Shown piece after piece: positions 22,015 to 58,000 of a stretch of DNA of 64,000 nt. Both the position numbers and the translations under genes were made by a program. The stretch comes from Bolinopsis microptera (lineage: Eukaryota > Ctenophora > Tentaculata > Lobata > Bolinopsidae), in the NCBI RefSeq assembly GCF_026151205.1, contig NC_087072.1:6126084-6190083 (forward strand), in the 5' to 3' direction. Below the pieces are notes generated by a model, which worked only from the letters and a program-made list of their open reading frames with translations, was not told where the DNA came from and did not search any database. How positions within the stretch are numbered: the first letter of the stretch is position 1; each line of letters opens with the position of its first letter.

Positions 22015-25000
22015 CTGCAGTGGATACTGTTATAAGGGGAATCAGGCAGTCTCCAAGAAGCTCGACTGGTCCATGGACCACTTCACCAAGGTACAGTGGT
22101 CCATGGACCACCATAAGTCAACTCATGAAGATTATATCTAATTTTTTATTATCAATTGAAATTGGCATCTTTATGATTGCAATATGTATAATAAGTATTA
22201 CAAAAGTAAATAACATACAATTTACATAGATAGATGGAGAAGGTCGGAGCTCTTCCTCATCTCCTCTGTCTTTCTGAGAGAGGCAGAGTCCTCAAATAAA
22301 CAGTATTTACATTGATCACACAGCTTGGTTCCCTTGAACTGATCAGCTAGGTGATGATAGTGTGAGGAGTCGACAAGCTTCATTTCTGCAACAAAACGCC
22401 ACTTGTAGAACGTTGATCTGGGCATCTGAATCTGCTGAATAGCCTGCCTTGCGCTCGTCCCACTCTTCACCATCTCCAAAACAAGAGGATATTGTTGATG
22501 GATTGCTGCTTCCATGCTCCTCCGTGTGGTATTCCTCCGTCTGATAGGTCCTGCCGAGCTCTCTGGTAGTGGTTGAGGAGGCGGTATCTCGATGAGGTTG
22601 AGGGGAGAGTCGACAGTTGGTAGGGGAAGGAGGGGAAGGGGGAGGAGCAGTGGAGTCTCCAACAAGGTGGGTTGGGCAGAGCTTTCGTTCTGTGATAGTG
22701 ACGGTTCTTTCGACACCATCAAGGACTGTAATTGTAGGACCCGTTCTTTTCAGCACTGTGCAGTCGGGGCATCTGGAAGGAGGGACAGGGAGAGCTGTAG
22801 AATTAGTTGGGATAGGAGCGTCTATGTTGACAGGATCCACAGCAGCGCAGGATATAGAGGCATGGCGCTCACCACAGTGTGTGCAGAAGTTGGGGTGTGC
22901 TCTGCTTACCACCAGCGGTCTGCCTCGTTGAGTCGACTTAGCCAAAGGAGTAGAGGGTTTGCAGATTGGGTCACAGGAATTGATGCTGTTCAATCTCTTG
23001 TCCTTGTCAGATGTGTAAACCATAGTAGGGTAGTGGAGGGTACAAATATGTAGTTGAAGGATGTAGTAGACTGTGGTCGATGGCAAAAAATCAATACTTC
23101 TCACTGTCTGTTCGCATATTATATATCGAAGACTTGACACAAGGAATACAAGGAATACAAGGAATACAAGGAATACAAATTTAAAATCTTGAGCTACAAT
23201 AGTAACTGTTAAGATAATAACAATATCATAAGATTTGAATTTATTATATTAATATAACTTAACTAAAGTGAAAAATAAAGATTTGACATAAAATATTTTG
23301 TTTTCAGTCGCCTTGGTAATGCTGTAATGCTTGAGCCAGGTCACTTTGCAGTTTGCACTCGTCGTTGCGCGAAAAGAAACAAAAGCGGGTACAGTGATTT
23401 TCAGTGTTCACTGTTCATGTACTGGCCAGAGAGTCAACAAATTTCTTGCGGTTGTTAAAACACGTAGTGGCAAACCTAGCAACGACTCTCGTGAGGTGGA
23501 CTTGACTTTCGTTCGTGATAAGTTCAATGATTTCACTGTTGTTGCTGATGAATTTGAGGACGTTTGCTCCAGGGATGACATTGTGAACAGAATAAGATGT
23601 CGCAGACGGTTTGATTGGATTTGATATGAGTGACTGGATCTTGTCTAGGACTTTTCGCCTCGATGCAGCGTTAAGATCACAATGGTTAAGGAAGTGGTCT
23701 TCATTCTCAATAATACCAGAACCTAAGACTATATTGCACCAGGAGCATATTCGCTCGTCACGTGGAGTTTGATTATATCGGCCAAGTTCAATTTCGAGTC
23801 GATGTGCACTGATCCGCAGTCTTGTGATATTAGCACGGTCTGCATATTTAATGACACTATCTAGGTAATACTCTTTGTTAAATTTGGATTTTAGGTCACG
23901 ATAGAATTCTAATTTCCGAGAAGTGTTGATACAGGACCCCCAATATTCTCTAAAGTTACATTTCAAAGTTTTAGTAATGACGTGTGGTGTGAATATTTTA
24001 CTCCCGATGGGTTGTGTTGATTGAGGAGGAATTCGTTTCTTGAAACCGTTGTGAATAAGAAAGTCCTCTTTTGGTGGTTTTGCGATACTCGGGTTTCTTT
24101 CGAAAAGTAACTTGGAGTGATTGTTTTTGAGTGTGCGGTAGGCTGTGACATGATCGGTAGAGAAACATGGGTCTAGCGCGAGGACAGGCTCCAAACCCCT
24201 GTACCAGTCCAATTTCATGTTCATCTGTTCTTTGAAAGCTAAGGAGACAAGGGAGTTATCTTTGAGATTTTTCAAACGTTGGCTATATTTGAGAGTGAGG
24301 TTAATACATTCATAGATTAATGGGTAGCGGCCTGACTCACCCCAGACGCCTGCGTTGCTGGCTTTACGATTTACCCCCAGTGACCATTTAAGAAAGTGAA
24401 GGTGAACTTTTTCGCTGTTCAGAAGGCTAATTTTCTTGAGGATACTAGTTTGAAATTTTGTTTTTGTGTCGGCATCCATATTGAGATCGACTTGTTTTGT
24501 TATGTGTTTTATGATAGCCATGTTAGGTGTGTAAATAGGCGCTCCGTAAAGAACGATAGGTTTAATAAGACCATCAAAGAGTGTTGTTAGAGAGCGGAAT
24601 GATAATTTGGATTTGTTTACTGAGCTTTTCATGGCATAAAGTGCACGCATGGCTTTCTTTTTGAGCTCAGTTCGGGCATTTGTGAATGTGCCGGATTTGT
24701 GTATTTCGATTCCTAGATAGCAGTATGACTCGACTTCTTCTAACAAGTGATCACCAATTTTGAGGGGAACCGGCTGATAAGTATCAAAACGGGCATTAAA
24801 TTTCATGAGTTTAGTTTTATCTGCATTAATTTCGACGCCCCATTCCAAGCAGAAATTGTTCAAAGCATCGAGTTGCTTTTGGAGGGTTTTGGGGTCCAGT
24901 GCCAAGAGTATCAGATCATCTGCCCATAGTAAGTGACTGATAAGTTGGTTCATTAGTTTCGGACAGTTATCATATTCTAGTCGAGGGGAAAGATCTCTGA

Positions 25001-28000
25001 TGTATATCTTAAATAGATCAGGGGAAAGTGGATGACCCTGTTCAGTTCCTTTATTGATATCAAATTTTTCGCTGACAAATCCAGATAGTTTTATCTGGCC
25101 AGTGGAATTTTTATACATATGTTTAAGAACATTAAATGTTTTGCCAGTGATACCTAGTTTAGCTAATTTTAAGAAAAGAGCTTCACGGCAAACAGAGTCG
25201 AAGGCCTTCCGGAAGTCCACAAAAACAGCATAGACGGGAACCTTGAGCTTTTTGTATTTAGACGTAATGGTGTTGAGTGTGAGTATGTGGTCATATGTTT
25301 GAGCTCCTTTAGCGAAGCCAAGTTGATTTATGGGGTCCGGGTTGTATTCATTTTTGAACTTGATTATCCTGTTTAACATGATGGTCGAAAATAGTTTTCC
25401 GATTGTACTACTCACAGCAACTGCTCTGTAATTGTCTGGATTATCTTTGTCGCCTTTTTTGTGTAGAGGTGTAATAATGCTGTTGTTCCATGGGTAAGTT
25501 CCAGTGTCCAAACAGCGGTTAAAGACTTTGCAAAGGAGTTGTGTGTTTGTTGTGGACAAGGTCTTCAGTATTTCATTACATATCATATCCTCCGAGGAAC
25601 TTTTGCCGTTTTTGAGTGAAGAGATCGCAGTAGATATTTCGTCCACAGAGATCTGGCCATTGAGTATTGATTGTGCAGGGGATGGTTGGAAATTATTGTT
25701 AATAGCCTCTGCATTTTGAAGCATTTCTTCCTTATTCTCTACAGTTATGGTGCTATGTGCATTGGCATAAAGTTTACCAAAGAATTTTTGAAAGTTGTCC
25801 ATGTCATGGCAATCAAATTTGTCAACTCTTCCTTTAAATTTTTTCAGTTTTTTGAATTGTTTCCAGTTAAGAATTTTACCAGATTCAATATCTGTATTCA
25901 ATTTGTCAAGATATTTGTTTTTTGTACGGTCAATTAAACTTTTGTACGTATTTTTTACTTGGTAAAAATTTTTTCGAAGATAATCGCTATTGGGGAAATC
26001 AGAAACAATTTGAGCTGCACGAGTACAAGATATTTTAGCTTCTCTGGTGGCTTGTGTGAACCAGGGTTGTTTATTTATTGATCCCTTTTTGGTTATTTTG
26101 GGATGTTTGGTCTTTTGGAGACATTTGTCTGCTATTTTGTTCAAGTGTACTGTGATATCTTCGTTTAATTTGTATGTACCTAGGAGATCTTCGGGATAAT
26201 CTGTTTCTAAGAGGCTTTTGGAACATTCTTCCACAAGTGGGTCCATCATTGTATCCCGTAAGCTTGAAAGGCTATCAGGAGTTATTTTGTAACGAAGTGG
26301 GGCTCGAGCGTAAGTTTCATGGAGTGCCTTTGTGTTTACAGGAGTGTTGGAAGGAGAGAAGTTGAGTGCCAGGAGTAGTGGTTTATGATCAGAAAAGCAA
26401 GTGAACGGCTGGATTGTCATATGACTTAGATACTTACTGCAGTTTGGTGATATAATAAAGTAGTCAACAACGCTGGCACCGCTGGTCTGAATACAAGTGA
26501 AGTCACCATATGAGTCTCCTAAAGTTCTCCCATTGAGAATATGGAGTTCATTATTGACAAGCATTTCTAGAAAGGGTCTTTTGTAATTGTTCGACTTTTT
26601 GTCCTTTGAGTTCCTGGTTGGAAGTTCTTGTGGGGTGTAGTCTTCTGGCAGGGGAATGAAGCTCTCGTAGCCACATTTGTCCTCTTTGATAAAGTCAATG
26701 TCATGGCCGATACGCGAGTTGAAGTCACCACAAGTAATGACATCACCTTTACTTAAAAGAACATTGAGAAATTGGTCCAGTTCACGGATGGTGTCAAAGC
26801 CCGAAATATTTGAGTTTTTAGAGGAAGTGTTAGCTGGCTTAATGTATGAGTTAACAATGAATATATCATTATCTACGCCAAAGTAATTTTTGTCAAGTTT
26901 ACAGGCAACAACATCTTCAATTGTGGATTTTTCAAGTTTAACGCCTTTGGATATTTCGTTTTGGACCATTATGCATACGCCACCATGTTTTTTGTCCCGG
27001 CGGGTTTTATTGAAGGACCTGTAACCCGAGTGTTTGACAGGTTGTCTTATTTCTTGAAGGCAGACAATAGGAAACTTGTCAAAGACGGCACAAAATTGAG
27101 GGTCATCAAACTTAGAGCCAAAAGTTGTATTTGTTGATTGGATGTTCCAGCTTATAATTTTGGATTGTAAATTCATAGTATTTTTTCAAGAGGTTGGGTT
27201 GGTGGTCATGATTTGAAGACTAAAATTTAGACTGGAAGCTCAAACTCCCTGAAGATCTTGTCGAGGGTGTCTCTCATGGTGTTGGTGATTGCATGCATTC
27301 CTCTTTCTGATAGATGGAGATTATCGCGGAAGTACATCAAGTTCTGCTTAGAAGTGGACTGAGTGTTAATGAAGAACTTATCATTTCTCTGAAGGAAAAT
27401 CCTTTTTGTTTTAGGGTCCTCGTCTTGCTGCTGATTGACCAATAAGGACAGGGATCTCCTCAAGGAAAAGACGTGTCGGTTCTGGTAGGTGTTTCCGTTC
27501 AGTAGGGGGCAAGAGATGACCAGTCTGGTGGTGGGAGATACTAGTTCTAGCATTTCATTAAAGATCTTGAAGTTGTCGATGATTTTGGTAATGTCCTCTC
27601 CTTTGTGTATATCATTGATGCCGAGATGTACATATATTAGTTGAGGCTTCTCTGTTGGTATTTTGCTCCCCATCATGTATTCACCGGTCAGTGATTCACT
27701 ACATGTAAAGTCAATTCTTTTGAAATTCAACCTATATTTCCTAAATTCCAAGCATGACTCATCAATGTGTCTCATAATTGAATCGGTAACAAGCCAAACG
27801 TTGATGGGTTGCCCACTTTCGACCAAGACTTTCAGGGAGGGCTTTATTGGATCGGGGAAACCAAATTTGGGCGAAGGCGAGGCTAGGTTCGGTTGGTCTC
27901 CTAACGCTGCTATTTCTTTTATCAAAGGGTCAGTTTGAATTGCGACCTCGCACATTTGGTGTGTTACATACGCGTGGATGTCTTTAATGTGCTCCCTTGT

Positions 28001-31000
28001 TTCATCGCAGAAGACACTATTGTAGTAGCTCCCCATGTCTTCCACCGATTTCTTCATGATATCTACTCCATTTTGACTAAGGTCGTTCAGAATCTTCCTC
28101 ATTGACTGAAGGTCATCTTTTGTGCCGTTTATGTTCTCCACAAGGTCATCAATTTTACCATTGCACTCCTTTATCGTTTGTGTAAAAACATTTGTCTTGC
28201 TCAGATTGTCGATTCTGTTGTTGCAATCACTCACTGCACTTTTCAAATCACTTATCGCATCCAAAACATCGGTGTTGCTGGTTGGGTGAGGCGAGATTTC
28301 TTTTTGAGTTTGTTGTTTGGTCGCTTCCTGGAGAGTTGCTACATTCGCCTTGACAGATACGATGGAATCCACAACATGCTTTAGAGAGTTCTCCACACAT
28401 TTTTGAGCATTACGCACTGATGCAATGTCATCTTTCATTTCCTCGTCTTCGATCCTCGGGGAGTCACATCGTGAGAAGTTCATGCCGTGAGACATCGAGT
28501 TATTGGCTGCTGACATGGAGAGTTCCCCGATTGACATGCACATTTTGTTCTGAAGTCTTGTCCGCTTTTCAGATAAAGATCCTGCAGTTGAGACTTGACT
28601 TCTTATGAGCTCCTTATCTACCGTTCCCTCATCCATCTTCCCTACAACTGCACTGATCGTTGATGCAAGCAGGAGTCCTCCATCTGTTTCATAATCCAGG
28701 TTGTCTGCTACAGACGTTACTCGAACAACAGTGGGGGGAGTCTTAAGGAGGGGGAAGTTCATTTCTTCAGCCTGTTCCGTGGTGATGTCTGACTGAGGGT
28801 TCTTCTGCGGACCTTTGAGGGCGCTGTCAGTTTCTGTTGGACATTTCTGTTCAAATATCAGGAAGTACTGTTCTTCTACTTTTCCCCAACCTCTAGGTAT
28901 CGAGCGTTTGTATCTCAACTCTGTCTTGCCACTGAGTACGCACAACGTGCCAGACATAAGGGCCGCTTTGTGGGTTACTTGACTCCCAGCTTGGGTCTTG
29001 ATGTACATGGGGCGTGGATCCTTCAGACCAAGTGCCAACACTGCAACTACTGGAGAGAAATTGCTGTTTTCCTGGCTAGTGTTGCCGTATGGAATACTGT
29101 GTGAGGGGTCACTCATCCGATAAATAGTGGTCTTGTCAAACTTAACATCCAACTGAAAAACGTCCTCAACCGTTTTGTTGACACCGATTAACAAGGAGCG
29201 GGAAACTACCTGATACCTAACAAGCTTGATTTCGCAACATGATCGGATATTTGAGTAATCACCTGAAGAGATCGCTTGACACAAATGCCCAATGGATCGG
29301 ATCCCGTAACACGAAGTTATCACATCAAGATAAGGAATGAATAGGTAATCAATAGAACAATATAATAACTGCGATTTTAGAAACTGTAACGGAGAAATAA
29401 TCAAAAATTTATGCTTTTAAAACTGAAAGATACCCATTAAAACAATTAGAAATCTGCTGGGACCCTCCTGTGGCATGGAATCTTCTACGAAACATGAAAT
29501 CAACAAGAGCTAGTTCCAAGTCAGTTTTTCCAACAACAGATTTTTTCACATGAGCCCAAAGTCCTTCCTGAGTGTTAGTATGCACGCCAGTTGCCGGGTC
29601 CACGAACTGGATCGAGTGGTTGACGGTGTGATGAGTGTAGCCAGCGGTAGTTAGGCTGTTATAGGCTCCCCACTCGTCAGTATAGACAACAGAACCAGGG
29701 AGGATCCAGCGTCTAATCAGAGGGAGTAGTGTGGATGCACCTCTGCTGTTGTTCGGACAGGGTAGTAGGAAACAGTTACCGTTGCTCCGATCTACAGCTC
29801 CAAGCACCCACTGCCCTTCTCTGTAAGCTCCTTTATTGTACTTGCGTTTTCCGAACTTGGCCTCATCCATCTCCACGACAACACCAGGTCCACCGAGAGG
29901 AGAGGGATTGGATACCAGAAAGTCAGCTACTCTTGTATGTATCATGGTCTTCCAGACACTGATGGTGTTCTCTGATACTCCTATGAGCTGAGAGATAGCT
30001 ACATTTGCAAGGGATTTGATGCTGAGGTAGAAAACCAGCTGTAGGAATAGTGAGAAGGTGAGCTTCTGTCCAGAGAGTACACTATCCGTTCGTATGTTCC
30101 TAAACCTTGAGCAGGGTGAACACCGCCAGATGAGAAGGTCTGAGGACTTCTTAGAGGAGCAGGGTACAAGGTTCATAGCAGAAGAGCAGCCAGGACAGGA
30201 AAGAGAGGACTTCAGAATACCACGTTGAAAGAGGAAATCCCTTGCATGCTCATCAGTATTTGTAATCCGATGGATTTCGTTGTGTAGTGAGTGGCTCATA
30301 TTGAAAACACAGTAGTGGTGTACAAGTATCTGTCTTGTATATCGAAAACGACGATGGCTGTGTACCACAATTCATCTTATATATCTCTGCGACGTTTTTC
30401 GTAGTTAATACTGACATCTTGCAATCTTAGCGAAGAAGTCTACCGTATGATTGGATCATATGATAATGGAAGCTAAAGTGCTTGCTGATACCATGGACCT
30501 TGTTAAAGTGGTCCATGGACCACTTATTCAGTGATAAGGTGGTCCATGGACCAGTGGTCCATGGACCACCTAGAGTGGTCCATAGACCAGTGGTCCATGG
30601 ACCAGTCGGGCTTCTTGTAAACTGCCGGGAATCATAATCATTGAATAGTCCGAGGCCGGAGATCTATTAAGAGCAATCACATAAATCTATAAATACGTCC
30701 GTGTAGGTTAAAAAGTAAAATTATTTTCAGAGAAGATTTAGTCTGGACGAACCTGAGCTAGAGCACGTTTGATAAGAGCGGACACATTCTCAGGTAACTC
30801 TGACTGGGAGTGGTCCTCATAATCAGGGGGCCTACCACTGGACCCTCTCCCTCCTTCTCCTCGGTGACCCTTGTCACCCTCCAGTGTACTTTCTCTACTG
30901 ATACTCGGCCAGTCTGACAACTGTGTACTTTCCCTGTTGAAATACACTGTCAACAACTGATATATTATTTATTAAGCTGGGAAATAATTCAAAAACAGTT

Positions 31001-34000: not shown

Positions 34001-37000
34001 GAGGACTGCTAGGAGAGACATGATGGACTTGGTAAATGAGGAAAAGAGGATGACACGTGATCCAAAGAGGATCATACCGGTTAGAGCGAATATGAGGATG
34101 GTGAGTATTATGTATATGGCAAAGTGAAGAACATTCTTCAGAGCGATAAACAAAACAGAGTGAAAGATGTTAATGAGTCGGAAGAACTTCAAGATAAGAA
34201 TTGATCGCATGATAAGAAGGAATGTTGACATGCCGTAGCACACCATCATGGTAGTTGTCAGGAAGTTTAGGGTGCTCAAGTCCAGGAACTCTGCCTTCTC
34301 AATGATCCGGTTCCTGAGGTGATTGACCTCGAGTATTCTGGTGAGGTGGGTGACAAAGGAACCTATCATGAAGATAGCCAGGATGGTGTTGTAGGTGAGG
34401 GATGGGGTGGAACTGTGCTCCACGTAAGTGTGGAATATCTCCCTGAGAAGGAGTACCAGTCCAACCACATACGTTCCCAGGACTATGAACAACAGGATTT
34501 CTTGAGTAGAGTTCCTGAAATATAGTCAGATTTAAGGAATAATGATCGCATAATTAGCTGCATCTTTTAGTCTGAAGTAAAACATAAGTTTTATTGCGAA
34601 ATCCACTGTTTGAAAAACTTGCTGTATTCATTCAGAAAATGGACACCCTGGATAATATGCCCTGGATATTTTCTTTATATTTTTTTCTATCTCGTCTAGA
34701 CAATATATCCCTGCTGTCTACCACAGACCATAAAAGATGAGTGTTAAGTTTCTAACTTTATTTACCTGAAAAGAACATGTAGAGGGGACGCCACTACCCG
34801 ACTTTGTGCGGAACAAAAGTCAGGAAACTCCGTGATATACTTCACATCCACAAACGTGTTGGTAGAGGGGGTGTACAGGGAAACCTCAACAAATACAACA
34901 GACGTAGCATGGCTGATCCAACTGCTTGATTTGAGGGATTGTAGGAGGGAGAGAGATTTCTCGCGGGTTGAAGGTAGGTACACGATGTGTCCCGATTCGT
35001 CATACCACGTGAAAGTACCTGATGGATCGGGAATTTTTTAGTTTTACTTAACGGACAATACCTACACGGACATGGTACCATTGGTAGTTTTAATACGTCC
35101 GGGGGAGGGGTCAACCTGTATAAACTCACAATTAATCGGGTATTTTGAAAAATTCAACGAAGTGAAAAAATAAGTGCGCTAATTAAACTTATTGGAAAAA
35201 CAAACTCCACAAACCTGCAGTAGAATACCCGATCTTATCTGAATAATGGGACTCTACATTGGGAGAGGACCAGCTGTTGAGACAGTTTCCCTTGTCACAA
35301 GCGTCTCTGGTCTGCATTCTTAGTCTTATGTTTCCCAGCCGGTAAAACCCTCCGTCCCGGGTGAAACCTCTGCAAGTGAATTTGCTGTTAGCTCAATAGT
35401 TTCCTATTTCAAACGCCCGCATTGCTCAACTTCTTAACGGAAAACATTATACGATAAACTGCCCATATTAATTCCTGGGATTACTTAAACTCTTAAAGAA
35501 GCAGTTTTATGTCAAATGTTGCAAGGTCAACCATCTTCATCTCAAACATTAAAGTGTTTGTTTTCTCCCTCCAATACGATCAAAGATGTTGATTGAAGAT
35601 GCTTACCCTGTAATTATGCCAATGCGTCACCAGGTCATGTAACTCGTAGAAGAGCATCAGAACTAGATAACTTCAATTACATGAAAGCAAATATGCTTCT
35701 AGAACCCCCTCTACGGTACTCAATAACTTTATAACTAAGTTCATCCAGTGCCCTAAACAGTTTTATCAAGGTCATTCTGATTGGGCAGTTTTAAAGCGCT
35801 TGCCACAAGGTGGGATGAGGTTATAAACGGGTGACAAGCAATGAGAAAAAGAAATGACTAACAAGTCAAGAGGGTTGCATCATAGCGGAGAGAATTGGAG
35901 TGAAATAATTATGTGCCTGACAGAACCAACCTGATGTCCAAGTAGTTGGGCTCCCAGAACGCAGCTTTGGTGAACACTTCCTCCATCCAGGTGTACCACA
36001 TATCCTTCGTGGTCACGTTGTAAATACTGCTGCTCCCCCTGAAGGCGCAGCACTGATATATCAACAAAGCTCTCTTTTTAAAATTATCTTTCAAAATAAG
36101 CGTGAATTCTCTATCCAACAGACTACAAAAATTCAAGAAGTCATCCTTTCGATGATTAAGAATCTTTTATAGTTTTCATGTACAGAGACGCACCCATTTT
36201 TGAATATTTATCCTTCTGAATATTTGATTTTAGTTTTTACAACATTTTTTACTGTCTCAATGAGTATTAAACCATTAGATTTTGATTTATGTTAACAATT
36301 GACATGTTGACATTAAAATATGAACCCAAACCATCAAACCGTTTTTTTTACAAGAATATGGTAGAACAAATAAGTCTATTGTATAATGTATATCCAACTG
36401 TTTAAACATACTGAATATTATAAGAACAACGTCAGCAGAACGTCAGCAGAATATTCTAAGCCAATGGAAGGTAAACAGTTAATCACGTGTTACGACAGTT
36501 CAAAAATACTCACACGTCACACTCACAGCTATGAGTATGATAAATAGTTCTATTCATCGAATGAAGAAAGATGAATGAAATCAAGGAACGTTATCCGCGA
36601 TCAATGCTTGAAAACCAATTACTCGAATGCTTAATTGCACTGTAACATAATATATTTGCAAATTTTGTCCGAAGGGCAAACATTCATATATTATAACTGT
36701 ATTGTAACTTCTTATAATCTAAGACTTCCTTGTCTCGGTTGTAGTAGTCGTGATGGTTCTGTTTACATATAACGTGTCCCAATTGCTGACAGAGCTCTAT
36801 CTATCACGGCGAGATCTCCTCAGCAGTAGAGTGAGAGGGGTAAGAGTGGAACATATCAGGGTACAGGTCAACAGAGAGAAGTATATGGCAGTATGTTCAC
36901 TCATGTCGGGCATTGCGCGTCTTTGCTTCACCAGCAAGCTATTGTGCTGGATCTTCGAGCCGAAGGTTCCTTTCCTACCTTCACTTACCAGCCATGTAAT

Positions 37001-40000
37001 AACACTAACAGCTGAGGTGCTCACGTAGATGCTGGTCAACAGGAAGATGGTCCAGCTAGCCTTGGAAACGTAGTTATCCTTATCTCGGTCCCCTGATATG
37101 TTCGCTGGATTAGCAGGGTTGTCTGCACATGCCTTCCTCAGTTGGCACAATTGCACTATCAGGAGCACAAAGCAAAGCAGTGTGGGAACAGCAGTTGGTA
37201 AGGTAAATTGGGCCAGGTTATTAAGGTGGTATGCGGTGTAGCTCATGCCATACTGCTCCTTTTGCATAGTTAAAAGCGTCAACCCAAATCCCGGCTGACA
37301 TTTCATAACCAATGTCTTCACCATTGACACTTGGTTGTGTGTTCCTATCTTTTCAGTGAACTGCCACAAATCGATCCCAACAATAACCGTCCAAATGAGC
37401 ATGTACAGCAGAATGCACACATAAAGAGCCTTCTCGTTGATTTTGTAATGCGGTTTTACGATCTGGATGCACCTGAATACCCCCAAGACACACTGCATGA
37501 AGACGCTCATCTTGACAGCTACTCCCGTTAAGATGTAGCTGATAAAGGTCAGAACTGTTATGTTGGGGATGTCGCTGCCCTTTGCGATCATCAGATATAG
37601 GATAATGCTCTGAAACAGGACTCCTAATCCTACGAACAAGTCTGCCAGTCCATTTTGGAGGATAAGGACATCTACCAAGTTGGTAGATCGACGCGTTTGA
37701 AGCCTGGTGTATACCATGGTGATGAAAACAACAGATAGATAGACACAACAGGTAGCTAAAAAAACATTCACAGTTGTCACAGCTATCAGGCCAGTTTTGG
37801 AATCGGTGGAGTTATAAAAACTGACCTCCTCACATGGTATTTCTTTTCCCCAGCATGAGCATGCCACTTTGATAATTGTAGACCCAGACCTTTTTACGGT
37901 TTCATCACAGCCATCTTTTAGCATCTCCATATTCACTTCATGCGTTATTGGGCTTGTTATGGAGGGATCTTTTCTGACTGGACCGAATAGTTCGGTCACA
38001 TACTGTTCTGTTCTAGACACAACAGGTAGCTAAAAAAACATTCACAGTTGTCACAGCTATCAGGCCAGTTTTGGAATCGGTGGAGTTATAAAAACTGACC
38101 TCCTCACATGGTATTTCTTTTCCCCAGCATGAGCATGCCACTTTGATAATTGTAGACCCAGAGCTTTTTACGGTTTCATCACAGCCATCTTTTAGCATCT
38201 CCATATTCACTTCATGCGTTATTGGGCTTGTTATGGAGGGATCTTTTCTGACTGGACCGAATAGTTCGGTCACATACTGTTCTGTATCATGTACTTTTAG
38301 AAAATTTGTATTCGGAATAAATCCATCTGAAATATCGTCAACAGCTAAGGTATCGCGTTCTGCAACAGTTTCTGCGATTTGTGGTGGATATTCTGTTGTC
38401 GTTGCACTCAAAGATAAAATCTCAGATGTTTGAAGTGGATACTCAGGCCAGGAATCTGTCATACTTTTTTTGAGATTCTTCTGAACACGACGGTAAGTTG
38501 TAACTGCTGACTTGATTGTACGAGGGGTGGACATCATACCCTCAGATTTATTATAAGATTGGTCATTCTGGACACAATATCCTATAGTTATTAGGAGCAA
38601 ACATAATCTAACAAACACGATCATTAAAAAGAAAGTTATGCGTACAGACTATGCGTTAGTAATAGTATTATAAGAATTATAGTAGACATTTATAGTTATA
38701 TACTAAGTCTAACGCATAGTAGACTATGCGCTAGTATTATATTTATAAGAATTGAAAGAATTTCAACCAACGAATCTAATTATATCTGAATGAAACGTTC
38801 GTATGAACTTAGTGTTATGCCTTCTTTTACTGAGCGGCGCGGCGCTCAGCCTGTCATTCCGCCGAATCTTTATTGTTTATGAACATAATAGCCTGGGGTC
38901 CCCAGGTAAGCCTTCTTCTAAGCTACCTTAGTGTTATGCCTTCTTCGCAGTAGAAAATCGCGGCATACAGTCTCCTAGTAATTTATTGAACAGTGTTTAT
39001 CTTGTCGGTACTCAAATATATCTTTGGGCAGGCTGTTTATAAAGCTATAAAGAAGTAATTAGTGATGCATTTAAGATAACTAGCATGAACCCGTCTACCC
39101 TAAAGTGGTGTCAAGACTCGAGAGAATAAAATAATTATTACCTATTTAATTCGCGTTTTTGACACCACTTGGGAGTCCAAATTTTGGGCACTAAAATTCT
39201 TATTCCTTGACGTATTTTTAAGTTTTTCATGCTGATTTGAAGGCCATTAAAGCATTTGACCCAGTCAAAAAAGTTTCAGTTGTATATCTTTTACGGTTTT
39301 TGCGGAAAGTCGCGTTAAAGTTGATGCCCTGGTGTCAGTAAAATGGCACGGATCCATATATCCATATATATATATATATCGTCTTGCTTTATATATTAAT
39401 ATAGTAAGATTAGTAGACAAGATTAGTGATGCATTCAAGCTTATTAGTGATGCATTCAAGCTGTTTCAAGCTTTGGATTAATAATTGAACGACCATTAAC
39501 TTTAGATTAGGAGCACAAAAAGGTTGAATTCTTTGAGATTAACTACCTTATCGGACCTTATTTGGACGGACATTACTTGGACGGACATTACTTGAACGGA
39601 CATAATTATGAACGGACATTAATATGAACGCTAGAAGTAGAAGGCAATCAAAACCATCAAAAATCCGAATTTTTTCCATCATTTTTTGACGTTTTTTAAA
39701 TTTTAGCAAATGATTTTTAAATCCATTTTTCATACAGTAAGCTTATCTGCGCTGTGCAGATAAGGTACGAAGGTACCTACAAGACTAGATCAGATACCGT
39801 CGGTCACATACCTAGGGAGATATCCGATCCCGGTTTGTCTTCTACTTTATCGAGATGGATGGTATGGTAGAAGGTATCGTAGCCTAAGATGAGAAGTACG
39901 GACTCGTTTAGGGGGAAAAGTACGTACTTGTACGCAACTTTGAAAAGTCCGACTCATACGACGTACGATTCAGATAGAATTTTTTTGTTTTTGAATTATT

Positions 40001-43000
40001 ATCATCGGGGCCAGAATTCTTTGGCCAGGCAAGCATTTAAAAGTAAAACAAAAATTCTACAAAATTACTAGACAATTTACTTATTTAAACAGCTTGTTTC
40101 TCTTAAAGTTAAACTTTAAGTTAATCGACGATTGGAATATATAGAAACACAAGTTTTTGAAAACGCTCAATATTAGTCCGTAACATGCGATTTAGAACTC
40201 TTTCATCGATTTCAAGAAGGAGAACTTTTCAGTAGAATTGAAAAGTACGTACGATACGAGTCAATTGAAAAGTCCGACTCATTCGTACTTCTCATCTTAG
40301 ATCGTAGCTGACATAAGCCACCAAAGGTCGCCTATACCAAGTGGGGGGCTCCGGCTAGAGATAAAGCTTAAGTTGTACTTTAGGCATTCAAGTATCTCTC
40401 TAGTAGAGCAGTTGGGATCGTTCATTGCCCGGTACGACTACGAGTTGGACAGACAACCAGTTGTAAGAGAAAATGTGGAGGTAGAAGAAGCCGAAGATCA
40501 ACTTCAAGATAGTGATCATGCAATATAATGTGATATTTACAATTCAGATTGTTAAAATTTTATAATACCTTGTTTTTATTAATTCGATGATATAGTTTAG
40601 TTTAATGATAGCTATTGAAATTGACTGAAATTAAAAAGTTGTCATATTCTGGACAAAAAGTTCGAAATGAAAAAGTTTTGAAAAAAATTGAACGGACTTT
40701 AACTTGGACGGACATTAATTGAACGGACTTTATTTGAACGGACATTAAGATGAACGCTAGGGCCTCCAGCGTTCAAGTAATGTCCGTCCAAATAAGGTCC
40801 GATAAGGTAATTTAATAAGCTATTTACAGGATTTCTAAAAACATGTAGATTCAGAAACAGATTATCTACTGATCACTTCAAGACTAAAGACGGTATTGGC
40901 TATAACTACCACAGGGCGGTGCAAATTAACACTGGCTGTTCAAAGTGAGTTCTTTTTGTTTGTTTCTTTTTTAATGAAAGTTATCTTTCATTATTATCGG
41001 ACGTTATTTGACCAGACATTGCGTGAACGGACATTAAAAAGAATGCTAGAAGGCGTTCAAAACACTAAAAATCCGACATTTGCTCACTTTTTTAGCGTTC
41101 TTTCTAATTTTAGCAGAGAATTTTTCAACCGATTTTTAATACATTAAGCAAGAAAAAACAGCAGTAAAAATGTAGATATAATCTAGTTTTATTAACCTGC
41201 AGCCCATTTCAAGGAAAAATAATCTCATAAAGACCGTGGTGGCGTTTGTTTTTAGGCTGAGGTATGCTATTACCAGACTGAAGACTATGCAGCAGATAGA
41301 TAGCAAGGTGTTAACTTTGGTCTTATTCTAGCTCCATGCTGTTTGAACCATGTCATTTTTCTTTCTAAAATTATTTCTAGTTCATGCCAAAAATAATTGT
41401 TGTCGGCACGAAAGAAGCCTTATTTTATCTACAAAAGAAAAATTATTTTATGCTTGAAGTTTGTGTATTTTGTGGAGATATATTTAAATAAAATATTTCA
41501 GATATCAATATTTCATAAGCCGTAAGAATTTAATAAATTATATGATTGCAGGAATTTAAATTTACTGGAACATCAAAACGTCATATGCCATAATGGGATC
41601 CATTCCCCAGAATACGGTTTAATGTTTATGTTTAGCGAGAAATGAACGCTCCCGGCAAGTCTCACTTTCTCTCGAATAACTTGCGTAGGTCACTAAATTT
41701 TATTTATAATATTATCATAACCCTGGCTAGGGTTAGTCATGCAACGTATTGATATGACATGTGACTATCTAAAATAAAAGTTGTTTCTATCTTGTCTACA
41801 TACGAATGAAATTGTGATACATTTTACGAAGAAAGTACCTTTTGTTATTTTTGAGTTATTTTTAAATTTTACACAAGATCTGAACTTTCTATCACAATTC
41901 TTAGTGTTAGAGAACTGTATTTATATGCATGCTTTGACAAAAATGTAAACAACAAGATCTATTGATCATATAAGATTATTTATGTTAATAATGAAAATAG
42001 TATCTGCCAAAAACGAAGTTTTACTAATTCAAGTAAAAATTCAAAAGTTAATTCAATAATCACGTTAGCAAAGATATCGTTAGTAAGATACCTTAAGATG
42101 TAAATTCCTCATATCGAGTAATGTGAATGAAAAATATCATTTAAACTATCAGACATTTTATAATCTAGATTGTCAAAAATGATATTACTATGTACAAACT
42201 TAATTATGTGGATGGTTGTATCCAACTTATATTGAATGAATAGATTTAATGTCAATGTCAGATACTTAAAACTAACAGCTAATTTAAAAGAATTCAATAA
42301 AAAATTAGAAACATCGCAAAAAATCCACAAAGAATCGTTTCTTCACATTCCACCAGGAAGCAAAACTTTGTCCTGGTTATAGTAATGATCATCTGGATCG
42401 TCATAAGCATCAGTCAAATATCCGACCACCATGGGAGGACCCGGTTCTGGCTGCAGATTTGCTCGTTTGAAGAAGTTAAACTTCCACAGACAGAAGATGA
42501 GGAGGAGGATGATGAGGAGAGCTGCGATAGCTGCAAAGATGATCACCCACAAGAAGTTCTGCCGTCTGCTCGTGCTCGGAGAGAGAAAAGTTGTTGCACT
42601 GGCGGCGGTGTGTATTTCGGACATGGTCATTGTCTCTTCGACCGACTTCAATTCTACATACGATGTGACATTGAGTTTACCAAAATCGTGCAAAAAGTAT
42701 TCCTGAAGCCTGGTTGTCAAGACAATCTTGAAAGAAGTGCGACCTCTTTCGAGAAACTCTAAATTACACGTTATCTTTCGGCAGAGATCCTTATTCTCCT
42801 TGCAACTGAAGTTAGAATAAATTACGTCTGACTCACTGAAAGTCTCTTTGAAGAGTCCCCAGTTGGTCACAATCATGTCATCGTGGTCACATTTAACTTG
42901 GGCATCTGTCTCGTTCATGTTGGGGAAACTCACAGCTTCGAGAGGAAACAGCCATGCACCTTCCCCTGTGAATTTCTCCGGCCAGTAGATTGACAAAGTT

Positions 43001-46000
43001 ATATTTTTCACGAACAAATTAATGGATTCGTCCCTCAGGGATAAGTCGTATTTGTGTCGGATCACCGGACCATCATATCCCAACAACTTGTTAGTTGCTC
43101 CGTAGTTGTTGTTATAATCCACATCGACTGGTGAGGATCCACCATTCAGTCGGAGATCAGCCAGGTTTACAATGTTAAGAGCGAATGTAGAGAAACCACT
43201 GGTGCCAGCCGCCTTTACACTCGGTTCTAAAACTGTCACCACAAACGAGAACTCGAAATCTTGTGGACTTATCAGCTTAGTCATGTTGAAGTCTAGGGGT
43301 ACGGTTAGAATCTCCTCATTCATCAGTTTGGTTGGAAGCATACATTGGATGCTGTAGAGTGTATCATCCGCTAACCCCTCGACGTAGGTAGAGTTACAAT
43401 CAATTGATGGCAGAAATGGGAGTATACCGGGAATGTTTTCAACATTTAGTATTGATCCGTAGGCAGTGTTTGGTCCTTTGTTGACTACTTTTACAGGCAG
43501 TCTAAACTCTTCAATCAGGCCAATAGTTAGAGGGTACTTGTCCATTTTGTCATATTGAACGTCCCCAATCTCAATAGCTACATCAGTTGTACATATTCCT
43601 GTGTCACGTGGACAATCTGAGGCGATGCCAAGAACAAAAGTAGCATCACTTATCAGCTGCTCGTTGAGGACAGCACGATCAGCAAACCTCTCCCTCTCTT
43701 CCAGCCCAGCTTCCATACTGAACACCACAGGTCGTGAGGAGTAACCCAGTTCACCCCGATAGTAAGCCGGGATAGCGGCAGTGCAAATCTTAAAACTGTT
43801 GTCCAAATCAACATCCACCCTTCCCTGGTACACTTGAGTAGGGTTGGTGTAGTTGGTGTACAGTCTAGCTTGGGAGAATGTTTCGCTGGCACTGTCTAGC
43901 TTAATTTCAAAATTAACGGTCGCAACCGCAGCACTGTCTGCCGGAGCGCCTATATACTCGAAGCATGCCTGCAGGTTTATACCTTGAACCTTTTTTCCAT
44001 TTGGCACGTCCAGCGTTGGCTCTCCAAGTGGGTCCAGTTCGGTTGTAGCGTCATCCCCGTATATAGTAATAGTGATCAGAACATCAATAATGGGAATACC
44101 TCTCAATAGCACGGCATGTTGAGATTTGTATGATCCTATGAGCACGTCAGAGATGCCATTATCATCCATGTCCTTCCCTCCAGCAATACTCCAGCCAAAT
44201 CCTCGGAGGCTGTCTAAAATGCCGAGTTTAGTTGGTGTGAAGATTTGGGAGGGTGTTGTCACGATCCCATCGTATCCTCCCAAAAAAAGAGAAACTTTAC
44301 CCTCACCATCATTGTAGTTAGGACTTCCAACCAACATGTCGTATGCACCGTCGTTGTTCACATCCCCAGCCGAGCTCAGAGCGTACCCAAAAGTTTCTGA
44401 CTCGTCAGTACCGGATATGTGTTGGAGTAAACTCAAATCATAGTCGATCGGCAGGAACTCAAACTCGTCGAATATATCGAACTTCTGAGCACCAGGATAG
44501 AAGTAAACCCGGCCAGTGTCCGGCCTGCTTTGTCCTTGACCTGGATACAAGGAGTACCACGGAGCTCCGACCACCAAGTCATCAATACCGTCTCCGTTCA
44601 TATCCTGACAGAGAACACTCCCTCCGTAATAACTGCCCATCTGTTCTCCGATCAGGTCGAATGGCATTTGCTCTGTCAGAACTTGCGAGATGCCCTGCTC
44701 CGTCTGGTATATGACTACCTGACCTCGGTAAAGTTTACCCCTGGGACCGCCAGATATAACGTCCATGATTCCATCTCCGTTCATATCGCAGATTGTGGTA
44801 CTGTAACCTATGTAGGGTTGGGAGTCCTCGTATTCGGGATCTTTATACGGGTCAGTGGTATCAGGGTCTATAACTAAATCTGCAGTGTCGTAGATATAGA
44901 GTCCCCCTGAACCCTCGTAGCAGCCCGGAGCACCTAACACCAGCTTGTCATCCAACCAGTGGGCTGAGGTTCCCGCTTGACAGTTTCCTACCTTGGATAG
45001 TCCTGACTCAACTCCTTTGCATGGTTGATATACCGACTCCTGGAAGTCCAAATCTTTGCCGAGCAGGATACATTTACCAGTCAACTGTCGGGGAGGGTCG
45101 TCAAAAAAGGAGGCTATCCCCAGGTACCTGGTCTCGTATTTATGAGCGCATCCTATTAAGTAGTCGGAGTCTATACTGGATTGGAGGGTAACACCCAACC
45201 ACTGGTGTGACTTCTGGTCACTCTGGATGTTGTAAATATCCGTCTTGTTGTAGCTGAATTCGAAGTTACCGTGAACGTCATCACTACCAACCCACTTGTT
45301 TCCCTGATCGTCCAGTACAGTCAGCTGTTCACTGCAAACCACCGGCTCAGTGAGGTCCCCTAAATCAGTAGGCACTTTGCACTTGAAGATGGTGCCACCC
45401 TGGTCAACACCTGGCTGGGGTGTGGACGAGGTCGGGGCTCCGATTAATAGGAAGTTACCTTCACTGTTCTTGTGGAGTGCCACCGAGTAACCGAAGTAGC
45501 CCTCCGCAGCATCACTCTTGATGATGTACGGTGATTTAGTGTCCAGGTTAAAACAGTGCACCACACTGATTATTGCAGCCAAAACGGCGAGTCTCATCAC
45601 TGGTGATGTATCGCTGACCAAATGGTTTATAACTATTTAACTACTCTGACGTTAGGTGTTTTACTCGGAGTAGTTGGCTGATCACATTTCCATCCAAATC
45701 AACATTTCGTAATCAAAGTGCTGAACATTCTCCTGAACGTAATGTTTTCAGATAAGAACTGGAGCGAAAGGTTTTAATTATCATTTTCTTAGTATGACAA
45801 AAGAGGTGACCTGCGTCGAATTACTGAAATCATTACTTCGCGTAATAAAAGTTTGAGTAAAAAAGCAATATATAAAACGGAATGCAAAAGTTAATTACTA
45901 AAGTACTAAGCAAGCTCATCAAAATTCAACGCACTACGGGCCCTGAGCAAATAGTTAAATTATTGGCTCATAAAAACTCTGCTAAAGACGAAACAAAACT

Positions 46001-55000: not shown

Positions 55001-58000
55001 AACCTGATAACATTTCATCAGATTATTGGGGGGAAATAATAGCAGATGGGCTGCAGAGTATTGAGAAAATAAGGGAACCATGATTTATATTTCGGCGTTT
55101 GGTAACGCCCATTTATTAAAACCCCGATTCAAACCCTAACTTTAAATTTTTGGAATCTTACTTATACAGAGAATATAATTCAGAGAATTCCCTTTGTATC
55201 TTTGTACGACCGCCCACGTGCAAATAGAAGAGAAATAGGTAGTTACATAATAACCATGGTAACGAGGGTTATTACGTGTAAGTGTAACAATCCTCGTTAC
55301 TATGGTTACTTTGCAACTTCTTATTTTTCACCTAATTTTCACGTGGGCGGTCGTACAGTGTACAGAAAGAAGTCTCTGAATTATAAAGTTACTAGAAACC
55401 CGCTAGTCGAAAGCTTTGTTCGGGGAAATTTTAAAAATCAGTTATGTTTTAATTTCTCTTCATCATATAGCTCTGTTATACTGTAGACATAATGGAATTT
55501 ATCTAACAATGGCGACAGCGTTGTTAGTATTCGGATTCCCAAAACGATACTTTTTACCGCATCAAAAAATACCAATCACAACCAAAGTTATGAATATAAG
55601 TCATAGCGTGAGCGTAAATGTGAGCTAGTTTTGAAATTATGACGTAGCATACAGCATAACAACGCGCGTAGTTAAGATGTTTTTGCTTGCGCACGTGCAT
55701 TTTAACGTTGCTACGCAACAGCGCAGTAAACCTTTGCTAAAATAACGACATTATTCTAACGGTTATTTTACCTCACTTCCGACGTTAATTATAAAAAATC
55801 TAAAGCCTAAATCAAAATTCTAAGAATGCTATAGCCTATCCCTATCCTTTTTCTACAACCCTGCTAAAAATGGCGAGGTTTCAACTCCATTTGCAAGCTG
55901 GGTTTGATTTCACCAGAGGGTCATTTTGAGGTCGATTTTCGGTGTTTTTTCTTCTATGTCCCCGTTGCCGGGGAAATTTCGTCAAGTTTAAATTATAGTA
56001 TAGATAAGTAAGACTAGAAAACCCGTGGTCACAGGGAGGAAGTAAGAATAAGAGAATTATTCCCGCTTGAGAGGAGTAAAAACTAACAGTTTCTGGGTAA
56101 GCGAGAGAAGTTTGTTGAGAATATCCAGGATAACTTCAAGTGAGTTGTCGGGCAGTGAGTACTCTCCCGCTAAAACTTCTCTAAGAAATGTCAACAACAT
56201 CTCTAGAAACTCAATAAACAGCTGCAATCCTTCCTGAAATTATCAAATCGTAAGTAAACCAGGCAAACCTTCGGTGATTAATTTATTCCACAGAAATTAG
56301 CAACCCTTCTAAAAGGAATATAGTTTTATTCAAAAATGTCGAGCTGAGTCGAGTCGTCCTCCCTGTTACAAAGTTACATGCCAATCTCGTTAAAAAGTAT
56401 CTAATTAACAAAAGTAGTACAGTCAAATCCGTCTTTTTGTCGGACAAAATTCGCAACAAAGCGATTTTAACGGGATATGGTCGGGACAGGTCCCAGGAAT
56501 CATTCCAGAGAGTTCCCAAAATCCTCGACTTCAGGAAAATCCACAGTTACCACTTTTTTACCACCTTTTTACCACTTTGGTTTTCCGCAAATAAGTCACG
56601 TTCTGAATATCCTAGAAGATTCTAGTTTAAAGCATTGTGTTTAGAAAACAAAGAAGAACAATTTTTTCTTTAACAACTTTTTCAAAAATAAATTATTTAA
56701 TTAATTAATTAAATAATTAATAAATTTTCAAATATTTCAAAAATACATTTTCATAAAGAATGTTCACAATTACATTCCACGTATATTGAACTAATTTTTA
56801 TGAAAATTTTGAAAATTTTCACTTACAATATTTTGGACTTGTAAAATTTTCGAAATTTGTAAAGAAAAACCACTATTTACCACTTTTTACCACATCGAAT
56901 CTCCGCTAATAAAACGACTTCTGAATGTCGTAGAATGTTCTAGATTGAACCAATGTGTTCAAAATATAAAAGAGAACAACTTTTTATCCGACAACCTTTG
57001 GATTAGATAATTAATTAATTGGTTAATTCGAATATTAAACAAATATTCAAAAATTATAAAAATTATTTTTGATCAAAATGTTAAAAAATACATATCACGA
57101 ATAATTAACAAATTTTCATTAAATTAATCGGGAAATCGAAGTAGTACTTTATATAACCATATATACTAGATAAGAGTCTAACTTATGAGTCCTCAGCTGG
57201 CACATTGGTGCAATTGTCCTGACATTTGAGGCAGGTTGATCCACAATGTATTCCTGCTTTTCTGCATGAACAAGCATTGCCACAACCTGACTTTAAACAG
57301 TTGCAACTGATTTTTTGAATGAGCTTTTTCGGAGCTGTACTCATAAGAGTGGTCACTGGTACATGTGTCCCATTGTTCTGAACAATTTGTTCATCTTCCA
57401 TCCCCAGCTTATCGGATCTAGGTCATTCTCATCCCACGCCTGCAGCTGATGGTAAACACGATAAGAATGTTGTTCAGCTGCCCCAGATGTTGGCGAGAGC
57501 TGTTCGCACTTGATGTCTGCTGTTAAAGATTGCGACTTCTGTTCAAGACCTGAAAGTCTAGCTTCATCTAGTGATCTCGATTTTGATGAAATCAGCTGCA
57601 GCATTAAAAGTTCTCCTACATGATTTATGGTAGCTGCCAGCTGGTGTAGAATTTGCCGAATAAAAAGCATCTATTACACTTTCATCGATGGATGCGATCG
57701 TTCTGAAGAGCCGATCCTTACCAACTCCGTGGATCCGACTGGTGGTGTCTGATCCAGTGAAAGTGTGGCACAGCAGCTTATCGTGTTTACGACTTACGTG
57801 CCTCCTACCAATCGCACTTCGAATTTTCTCAATGTCATAGATGTAGCTTTTTGTGGTGAGAAACAGTAGGTGGTCAAATGCAAAGTGTTTTGTCATGTGC
57901 AGTAAAATTACAAGCAAATCAGTATCATCACCAATTACAGAAACATCAACTTGATTAGACCACTCAACTGCCTCTCTGCAAATCAAAACGATGTGCGAAA

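Follow-up and report, generated by a model that had tools for sequence, protein, structure and literature searches.

A 5'-truncated LINE nested in one copy of a Merlin transposon family with a second gene in Bolinopsis microptera

The stretch of DNA analysed here, referred to as the window, comprises 64,000 nucleotides of Bolinopsis microptera (contig NC_087072.1, positions 6,126,084 to 6,190,083) and contains a DNA transposon of the Merlin superfamily in which a long interspersed nuclear element (LINE) is located between two transposon genes. An earlier note on this DNA had offered two readings, a LINE nested in a two-gene Merlin element or a chimeric element that moves reverse transcriptase cargo by cut-and-paste. 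The former is almost certainly correct: an independent LINE inserted into one copy of a two-gene Merlin family, as can be concluded from the single LINE-bearing copy, from a sibling element (L009) with an uninterrupted target, and from the 5-7 bp duplication around the LINE. The idea of a cargo-moving chimera gained no support. What had looked like a composite is an ordinary nested insertion, a result that clears away a false lead; the residual interest is in the two-gene Merlin lineage, as Merlin usually is described with a transposase gene only.

The features of the nested structure are the following (window positions, strand where one applies):

22037-22044: left target site duplication GGGAATCA, exact match to 30627-30634
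22045-22082, plus: left terminal inverted repeat of 38 bp, begins with GG, found by the inverted-pair scan, end common to ten siblings
22067-22112: left subterminal copies of the palindrome GGTCCATGGACC
22222-22620, minus: end of the accessory gene, coding for the helix-turn-helix C-terminus, in a different frame from the N-terminal part
22616-22620: point at which 188 bp of the accessory gene are deleted with a shift of the frame, segment present in the siblings L011 and L015
22621-23023, minus: start of the accessory gene (ATG onward), coding for the Cys/His N-terminus
23134-23138: target duplication GTCAA on the LINE 3' side, 7 bp at most (GTGTCAA) if the final two bases of the tail are counted as shared
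23139-29177, minus: nested LINE, 5'-truncated, delimited by junction comparisons with L009 and other LINE copies
23139-23178: LINE tail of ATTCCTTGT repeats
23415-27176, minus: LINE open reading frame 2 (ORF2), endonuclease and reverse transcriptase, open over 1253 amino acids
27227-29177, minus: LINE ORF1, N-terminus missing, weak SGNH/GDSL-like C-terminus
29178-29182: target duplication GTCAA on the LINE 5' side, TCAA shared with LINE sequence (microhomology)
29409-30368, minus: Merlin transposase frame, first ATG at 30299, DDE_Tnp_IS1595 match
30494-30604: right subterminal copies of the palindrome GGTCCATGGACC
30589-30626, minus: right terminal inverted repeat of the Merlin, found by the inverted-pair scan
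30627-30634: right target site duplication GGGAATCA, exact

The Merlin element and its family

The Merlin element spans 22045-30626 and is directly abutted on the outside of each end by GGGAATCA. Its terminal inverted repeats are 92% complementary over their 38 bp, and both ends start with GGCAGT and hence with the GG that is typical of Merlin termini. The inverted ends and the exact 8-bp duplication described in the earlier note were recovered, and also its observation that all frames lie on the same strand holds, as the transposase, LINE and accessory frames are all on the minus strand, with the LINE between the two Merlin genes. When the window was scanned for inverted pairs (up to 6 mismatches allowed in 30, bounded by exact 8-bp direct repeats, spacing of 200-12,000 bp), the Merlin pair was detected together with one A+T-rich palindrome (eleven rows, approximately 56.7-59.5 kb), and no inverted pair with an 8-bp repeat was obtained in 20 shuffles of the window that kept the base composition only. 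Without the LINE, the element has a length of 2,543 bp.

The transposase frame is open and matches DDE_Tnp_IS1595 with an E-value of 1.9e-18 (67.4 bits at a cut-off of 27), by which it has the domain of Merlin transposases, and the proposed ISXO2/Merlin DDE transposase is confirmed as an open frame. We take D168, D231 and E268, in the motifs MDE, TDE and NTQE, to be its catalytic residues. In an alignment of eight transposases, several rows stop before the third of these positions, and the sibling L012 has NTQG there. A change at 29956 that is private to the window copy results in a valine at residue 138, a position with aspartate in all five other covering rows of the family (group A below) and in both rows of the more distant group B. 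The comparison with solved structures gave a single match (E 0.032) that was set aside as unused.

The window's own assembly (264.65 Mb, 232 contigs) was searched throughout, and repeat copy counts from these searches are lower bounds. With the two LINE-free Merlin arms of the window as queries, ten siblings (L009-L018) were found beside more distant or fragmentary matches, so that the family, including the window, has 11 known copies. An exact 19-base end pattern occurs at 11 sites: the window has two of them and nine of the ten siblings have one each, which is consistent with this tally. Exact 8-bp duplications flank nine of the 11 copies, namely the window element and eight siblings (AAGAGGGC, GAATATCC, GGAATCAG, CAATGTAG, GTTATCTC, CTGGATTA, AAACGATG, CAATACGG), and every one is different; L009 has no 8-bp duplication, and L017 has lost one end. 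As the sibling duplications are exact and all different, it is clear that the family moved by the ordinary Merlin route. The duplication GGAATCAG of L012 has seven letters in common with GGGAATCA, offset by one step, which is taken as chance. Sibling lengths range from 302 to 2,997 bp (L017 left out). The check that the earlier note had proposed, a count of copies with and without the LINE together with a comparison of the flanking 8-mers, thus gave a LINE in one of 11 copies and in none of the ten siblings.

Three of the siblings carry nested inserts, each its own: one of 560 bp in L009, one of 543 bp in L010, and one of 584 bp in L016, with flanking repeats of about 11, 12 and 6 bp, respectively. 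The insert of L010 has long inverted arms and by eye looks partly tRNA-derived.

The nested LINE

The LINE has the features by which such elements are recognized: a frame with reverse transcriptase and endonuclease, a 3' tail, a target duplication, and a 5' truncation. ORF2 matches RVT_1 (7.5e-29) and Exo_endo_phos (2.7e-6) and is related in sequence to LINE-1 ORF2p and R2 proteins of solved structure. The C-terminus of ORF1 resembles SGNH/GDSL proteins with an E-value of 0.0014 that is under the Pfam cut-off. The LINE is a member of a young family, and its 3' end was found in 40 scored matches, the window's included, of 242 candidates.

It is not a complete member, however, as the earlier note had claimed. 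Ten other LINE 5' ends were compared, and eight of them share upstream sequence throughout the approximately 100 bp available; in the ninth, the likeness stops 33 bp upstream, and the tenth (C1:25036651) has lost more of its 5' part than the window LINE. Three longer copies are, in pairs, nearly identical for about 1.7-1.85 kb further upstream, and beyond the point where the window LINE breaks off, their ORF1 frame remains open upstream for another 578, 601 and 601 codons. The window LINE is 5'-truncated inside ORF1, and the 725-amino acid frame seen in the window is the ORF1 remainder, fused in frame by chance to Merlin sequence, so that of the two LINE frames regarded as intact only ORF2 stands. 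The ORF1 protein would be whole if its translation started from a methionine that lies downstream of the break, which is disfavoured because the 600-codon open frame is common to the longer copies. In L047-L049, the open frame of about 600 codons upstream of the break point contains by eye a membrane-spanning-like stretch.

The insertion site can be read off directly from L009. Its uninterrupted sequence is ...TTAATCGGT GTCAA GTCTTCG..., and that of the window is ...TTAATCGGT GTCAA (LINE) GTCAA GTCTTCG..., with the Merlin resuming at the next base. At up to two mismatches, the uninterrupted target has one site in the genome, which is L009, and the LINE-to-Merlin 3' junction of the window likewise has one site at up to one mismatch. 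The 5' junction pattern has 12 sites, the exact one in the window and 11 that all have A in place of G as their only mismatch; these 11 are other LINE copies that cross the window's break point, and none of them is within 8 kb of any of the ten group A siblings. Because all 11 share this mismatch, the G can be assigned to the Merlin target, with TCAA as a microhomology, and the LINE target duplication is 5 bp, or 7 bp with the GT counted on both sides. The LINE segment, which had been drawn as 23139-29408, has its upstream boundary at about 29177 instead; 29178-29408 is Merlin sequence, since L009 matches it without a break.

Nesting and the alternatives to it

The Merlin ends, both duplications, the uninterrupted target in L009, the multi-copy LINE family and the 5' truncation are all directly shown by the sequences. 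A Merlin of the two-gene family would first have inserted by cut-and-paste and thereby created the 8-bp duplication GGGAATCA, with the transposase presumably cutting at the GG... ends and inserting with an 8-bp stagger, as is established for Merlin elements. Independently, a LINE would have entered between the transposase and accessory genes of this one copy by target-primed reverse transcription, a mechanism suggested by general LINE behaviour; it duplicated 5-7 bp and became 5'-truncated at the 4-bp TCAA match. Its arrival probably followed the settling of the Merlin at the window locus.

Several points weigh against this view. In nine of the ten siblings, deletions span the LINE site, and L009 alone keeps both sides; the nine are uninformative on a former LINE presence, and the absence of the LINE from all ten siblings is thus weaker evidence than it appears. 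The argument depends on L009 as the single clean sibling, and no matching 8-bp duplication flanks L009 itself. In the genome search, each outer flank of the Merlin had itself as its only match, so that no paralogous empty site of the Merlin insertion was found in the genome. Finally, the private changes do not date the LINE relative to the Merlin, as the difference between 4 in 6,018 columns of the LINE (seven copies) and 4 in 2,375 Merlin sites (covered by at least two siblings) has a Fisher p of 0.23.

Among the alternatives, the one that survives best, although very improbable, is that the LINE entered the Merlin elsewhere and that the 8.6-kb composite then moved here as a single cut-and-paste unit. 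Compatible with such a movement are the two intact ends and the intact outer 8-bp duplication, the open transposase frame, the lack of evidence that dates the LINE later than the outer insertion, and the loss of the informative stretch in nine siblings. A mobile composite should, however, recur in the genome, with inner junctions that are the same from copy to copy and outer duplications that differ, and this is not what was found: the LINE is in one found copy only, the inner 5' junction occurs once without mismatch and the 3' junction once at up to one mismatch, and the sole sibling that retains the site, L009, is LINE-free. The private changes point in the same direction. Four base changes in the window Merlin are private, as every sibling with sequence at the respective site differs (8 of 8 at 22235, 6 of 6 at 22517, 5 of 5 at 29583, and 5 of 5 at 29956), and L011 and L015 are without the 188-bp deletion, so that no covering sampled sibling shows descent from the window copy. 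Composite mobility as the best reading was rejected on copy counts and junction searches.

That the element is a chimeric transposon with the LINE as a selected cargo and working part is so improbable that it can be practically disregarded. It could be seen as fitting that the frames are all on one strand, with a Merlin gene on either side of the LINE, but the LINE has a tail and a duplication of its own and comes from an independent family, of which it is a 5'-truncated copy, and the ten siblings and the examined divergent two-gene Merlins have no LINE; the LINE-free siblings largely contradict this idea. Just as negligible is an assembly artefact that joined unrelated repeats: both kinds of repeat are multi-copy, but both junctions show the target duplications that insertion predicts, the Merlin resumes at the next base, and window-private changes are found in both Merlin arms.

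The accessory gene

The helix-turn-helix/zinc protein of the earlier note is represented in the window by two out-of-frame pieces of a broken gene, from which 188 bp are missing with a shift of the frame. This difference was measured between anchors in L011 and L015, and L009 and L010 also contain all or most of the segment. The gene is open over 329 amino acids from its ATG in L011, and from residue 39 onward in L015. An intron was considered for the 188-bp segment and rejected, as the frame continues through it in both siblings.

Pfam gave only weak matches to the accessory protein, CCDC106 with 6e-5 (under the cut-off) and helix-turn-helix models with 0.09 or more, and the predicted structure of the helix-turn-helix frame of the window, with a mean predicted local distance difference test score of 53, is too poor for fold searching. 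With the L011 protein as query, 64 matches were found in the genome that correspond to 58 places when merged within 2 kb. At least 14 of these 58 are within 8 kb of a transposase match, as judged from the best 55 of 125 transposase matches, and at many of the others the match is short and confined to one end of the protein. The accessory protein family may thus be wider than Merlin, or the remaining places may be remnants. One place (L058:2084-3238, minus strand) has a 385-codon frame with about 25% identity to the accessory protein, near a LINE-like frame and short tandem repeats; no Merlin transposase match was found within the 5.5 kb of L058.

Two-gene Merlins in three divergent groups

A second protein with a Cys/His N-terminus and a helix-turn-helix C-terminus is found beside Merlin transposases in three divergent groups and in three gene orientations. 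In group A, the family of the window, the transposase and accessory genes are in tandem on one strand. In group B (L056, L057), where the identity over the longest match is 63% and 70% for the transposase and 40% and 50% for the accessory protein, the two genes are convergent, tail to tail. L056, L057, L059 and L060 have the 8-bp duplications GAGCACAG, GAGCTGTT, GAGATATG and CTCATTGC, and all four contain parts of both genes. Group C (L062, L063, L065, L066, L067 and L068) has a transposase that is only about 37-39% identical to that of the window, and its second frame and transposase are arranged head to head. L062 and L065-L068, which are 3.4-3.7 kb long, have ends that match and the 8-bp duplications ATAGTATA, GAATCGTC, AAAACATG, ACTTAATT and GCTTACTG; in L063, the exact-end scan gave no ends or duplication.

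The group C elements are six of 12 places with divergent transposases that were examined (L061-L072), and these six have the clear second gene. L070 and L072 have an N-terminal accessory match 1.6-1.8 kb from the transposase match, with that of L072 on the wrong side for a head-to-head arrangement, and at the other four (L061, L064, L069, L071) there was no second gene within the stretch.

In a profile comparison of the last 115 residues of the second proteins, the A/B type (L011, L056, L058) aligns with group C (L062, L063) with a probability of 95.4% and an E-value of 6e-9, and the reversed control gave an E-value of 0.26. The same comparison of the N-terminal parts was not significant (probability 1.9%, E 0.0098, reversed control E 0.25); by eye, the order of Cys and His in these parts looks alike. 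Also subterminal palindromes recur, GGTCCATGGACC in group A and GGTCCGCGGACC in group B.

That the second protein is found repeatedly suggests a lineage of Merlins with two genes. The guess that the window element derives from a two-gene Merlin is backed by the siblings and the divergent groups, but the window's own second gene is broken. It is conceivable, if somewhat short of probable, that the Merlins here are an old two-gene system of a transposase and a conserved zinc-binding helix-turn-helix partner, a pair that was kept while its orientation changed from tandem to tail-to-tail or head-to-head arrangements, and that the partner perhaps reads the GGTCC(A/G)(T/C)GGACC subterminal repeats of groups A and B. 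As a possible mechanism, the accessory protein may bind element DNA, perhaps at the subterminal palindromes, and thereby help or limit the transposase. Alternatively, it could be a captured passenger, or a regulator that is dispensable for movement. For genome annotation, these elements are a warning, as such second frames likely are transposon genes rather than host genes.

Other features of the window

An inverted repeat with arms of about 347 bp bounds a 2.85-kb stretch at 56684-59535 and probably is another mobile or foldback element. Of two long uninterrupted frames on the minus strand, one of 1092 amino acids at 42343-45621 by eye resembles an integrin alpha chain, and one at 36797-38020 a seven-helix receptor.

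Comparison with known systems

Merlin elements have been described with ends of 24-462 bp, terminal GG and duplications of 8-9 bp, and the related bacterial IS1595 family has a single transposase gene (PMC8101967, Introduction). The available text of the same article mentions Merlin hits in ctenophores and one Merlin family with an extra 1-kb frame that overlaps the transposase in opposite orientation and was judged to be probably due to chance. A two-gene Merlin with a protein like the one described here was not found in the literature searched, which included the available text of PMC8101967 and PMC4202319 and had Repbase and subscription journals outside its scope, and this negative result is no proof of novelty.

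The window LINE itself is not unusual. Its tandem-repeat tail and GDSL-like ORF1 suggest that it may belong to a CR1/L2-like clade. With such LINEs it shares an ORF2 with endonuclease and reverse transcriptase, the weak SGNH/GDSL-like match of ORF1, a short tandem-repeat tail rather than poly(A), and the 5' truncation; there is no notable difference, and only its nesting place is special.

Like other members of the Merlin superfamily (IS1016/IS1595-related), the window element has a DDE_Tnp_IS1595 transposase, inverted ends that start with GG, and 8-bp duplications. The usual description with a transposase gene alone does not apply to the family of the window, in which a second gene is conserved beside the transposase. 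Two-gene DNA transposons of the Harbinger/ISL2EU kind encode a transposase and a second protein, and if the partner protein is conserved across the groups, Merlin becomes comparable with two-protein transposons such as Harbinger. KolobokP is composite-like according to the available text of PMC9587614. Both Harbinger/ISL2EU and KolobokP likewise combine a transposase with a second protein, but their transposases belong to different superfamilies, and the likeness to the two-gene Merlins that is noted here is one of gene content.

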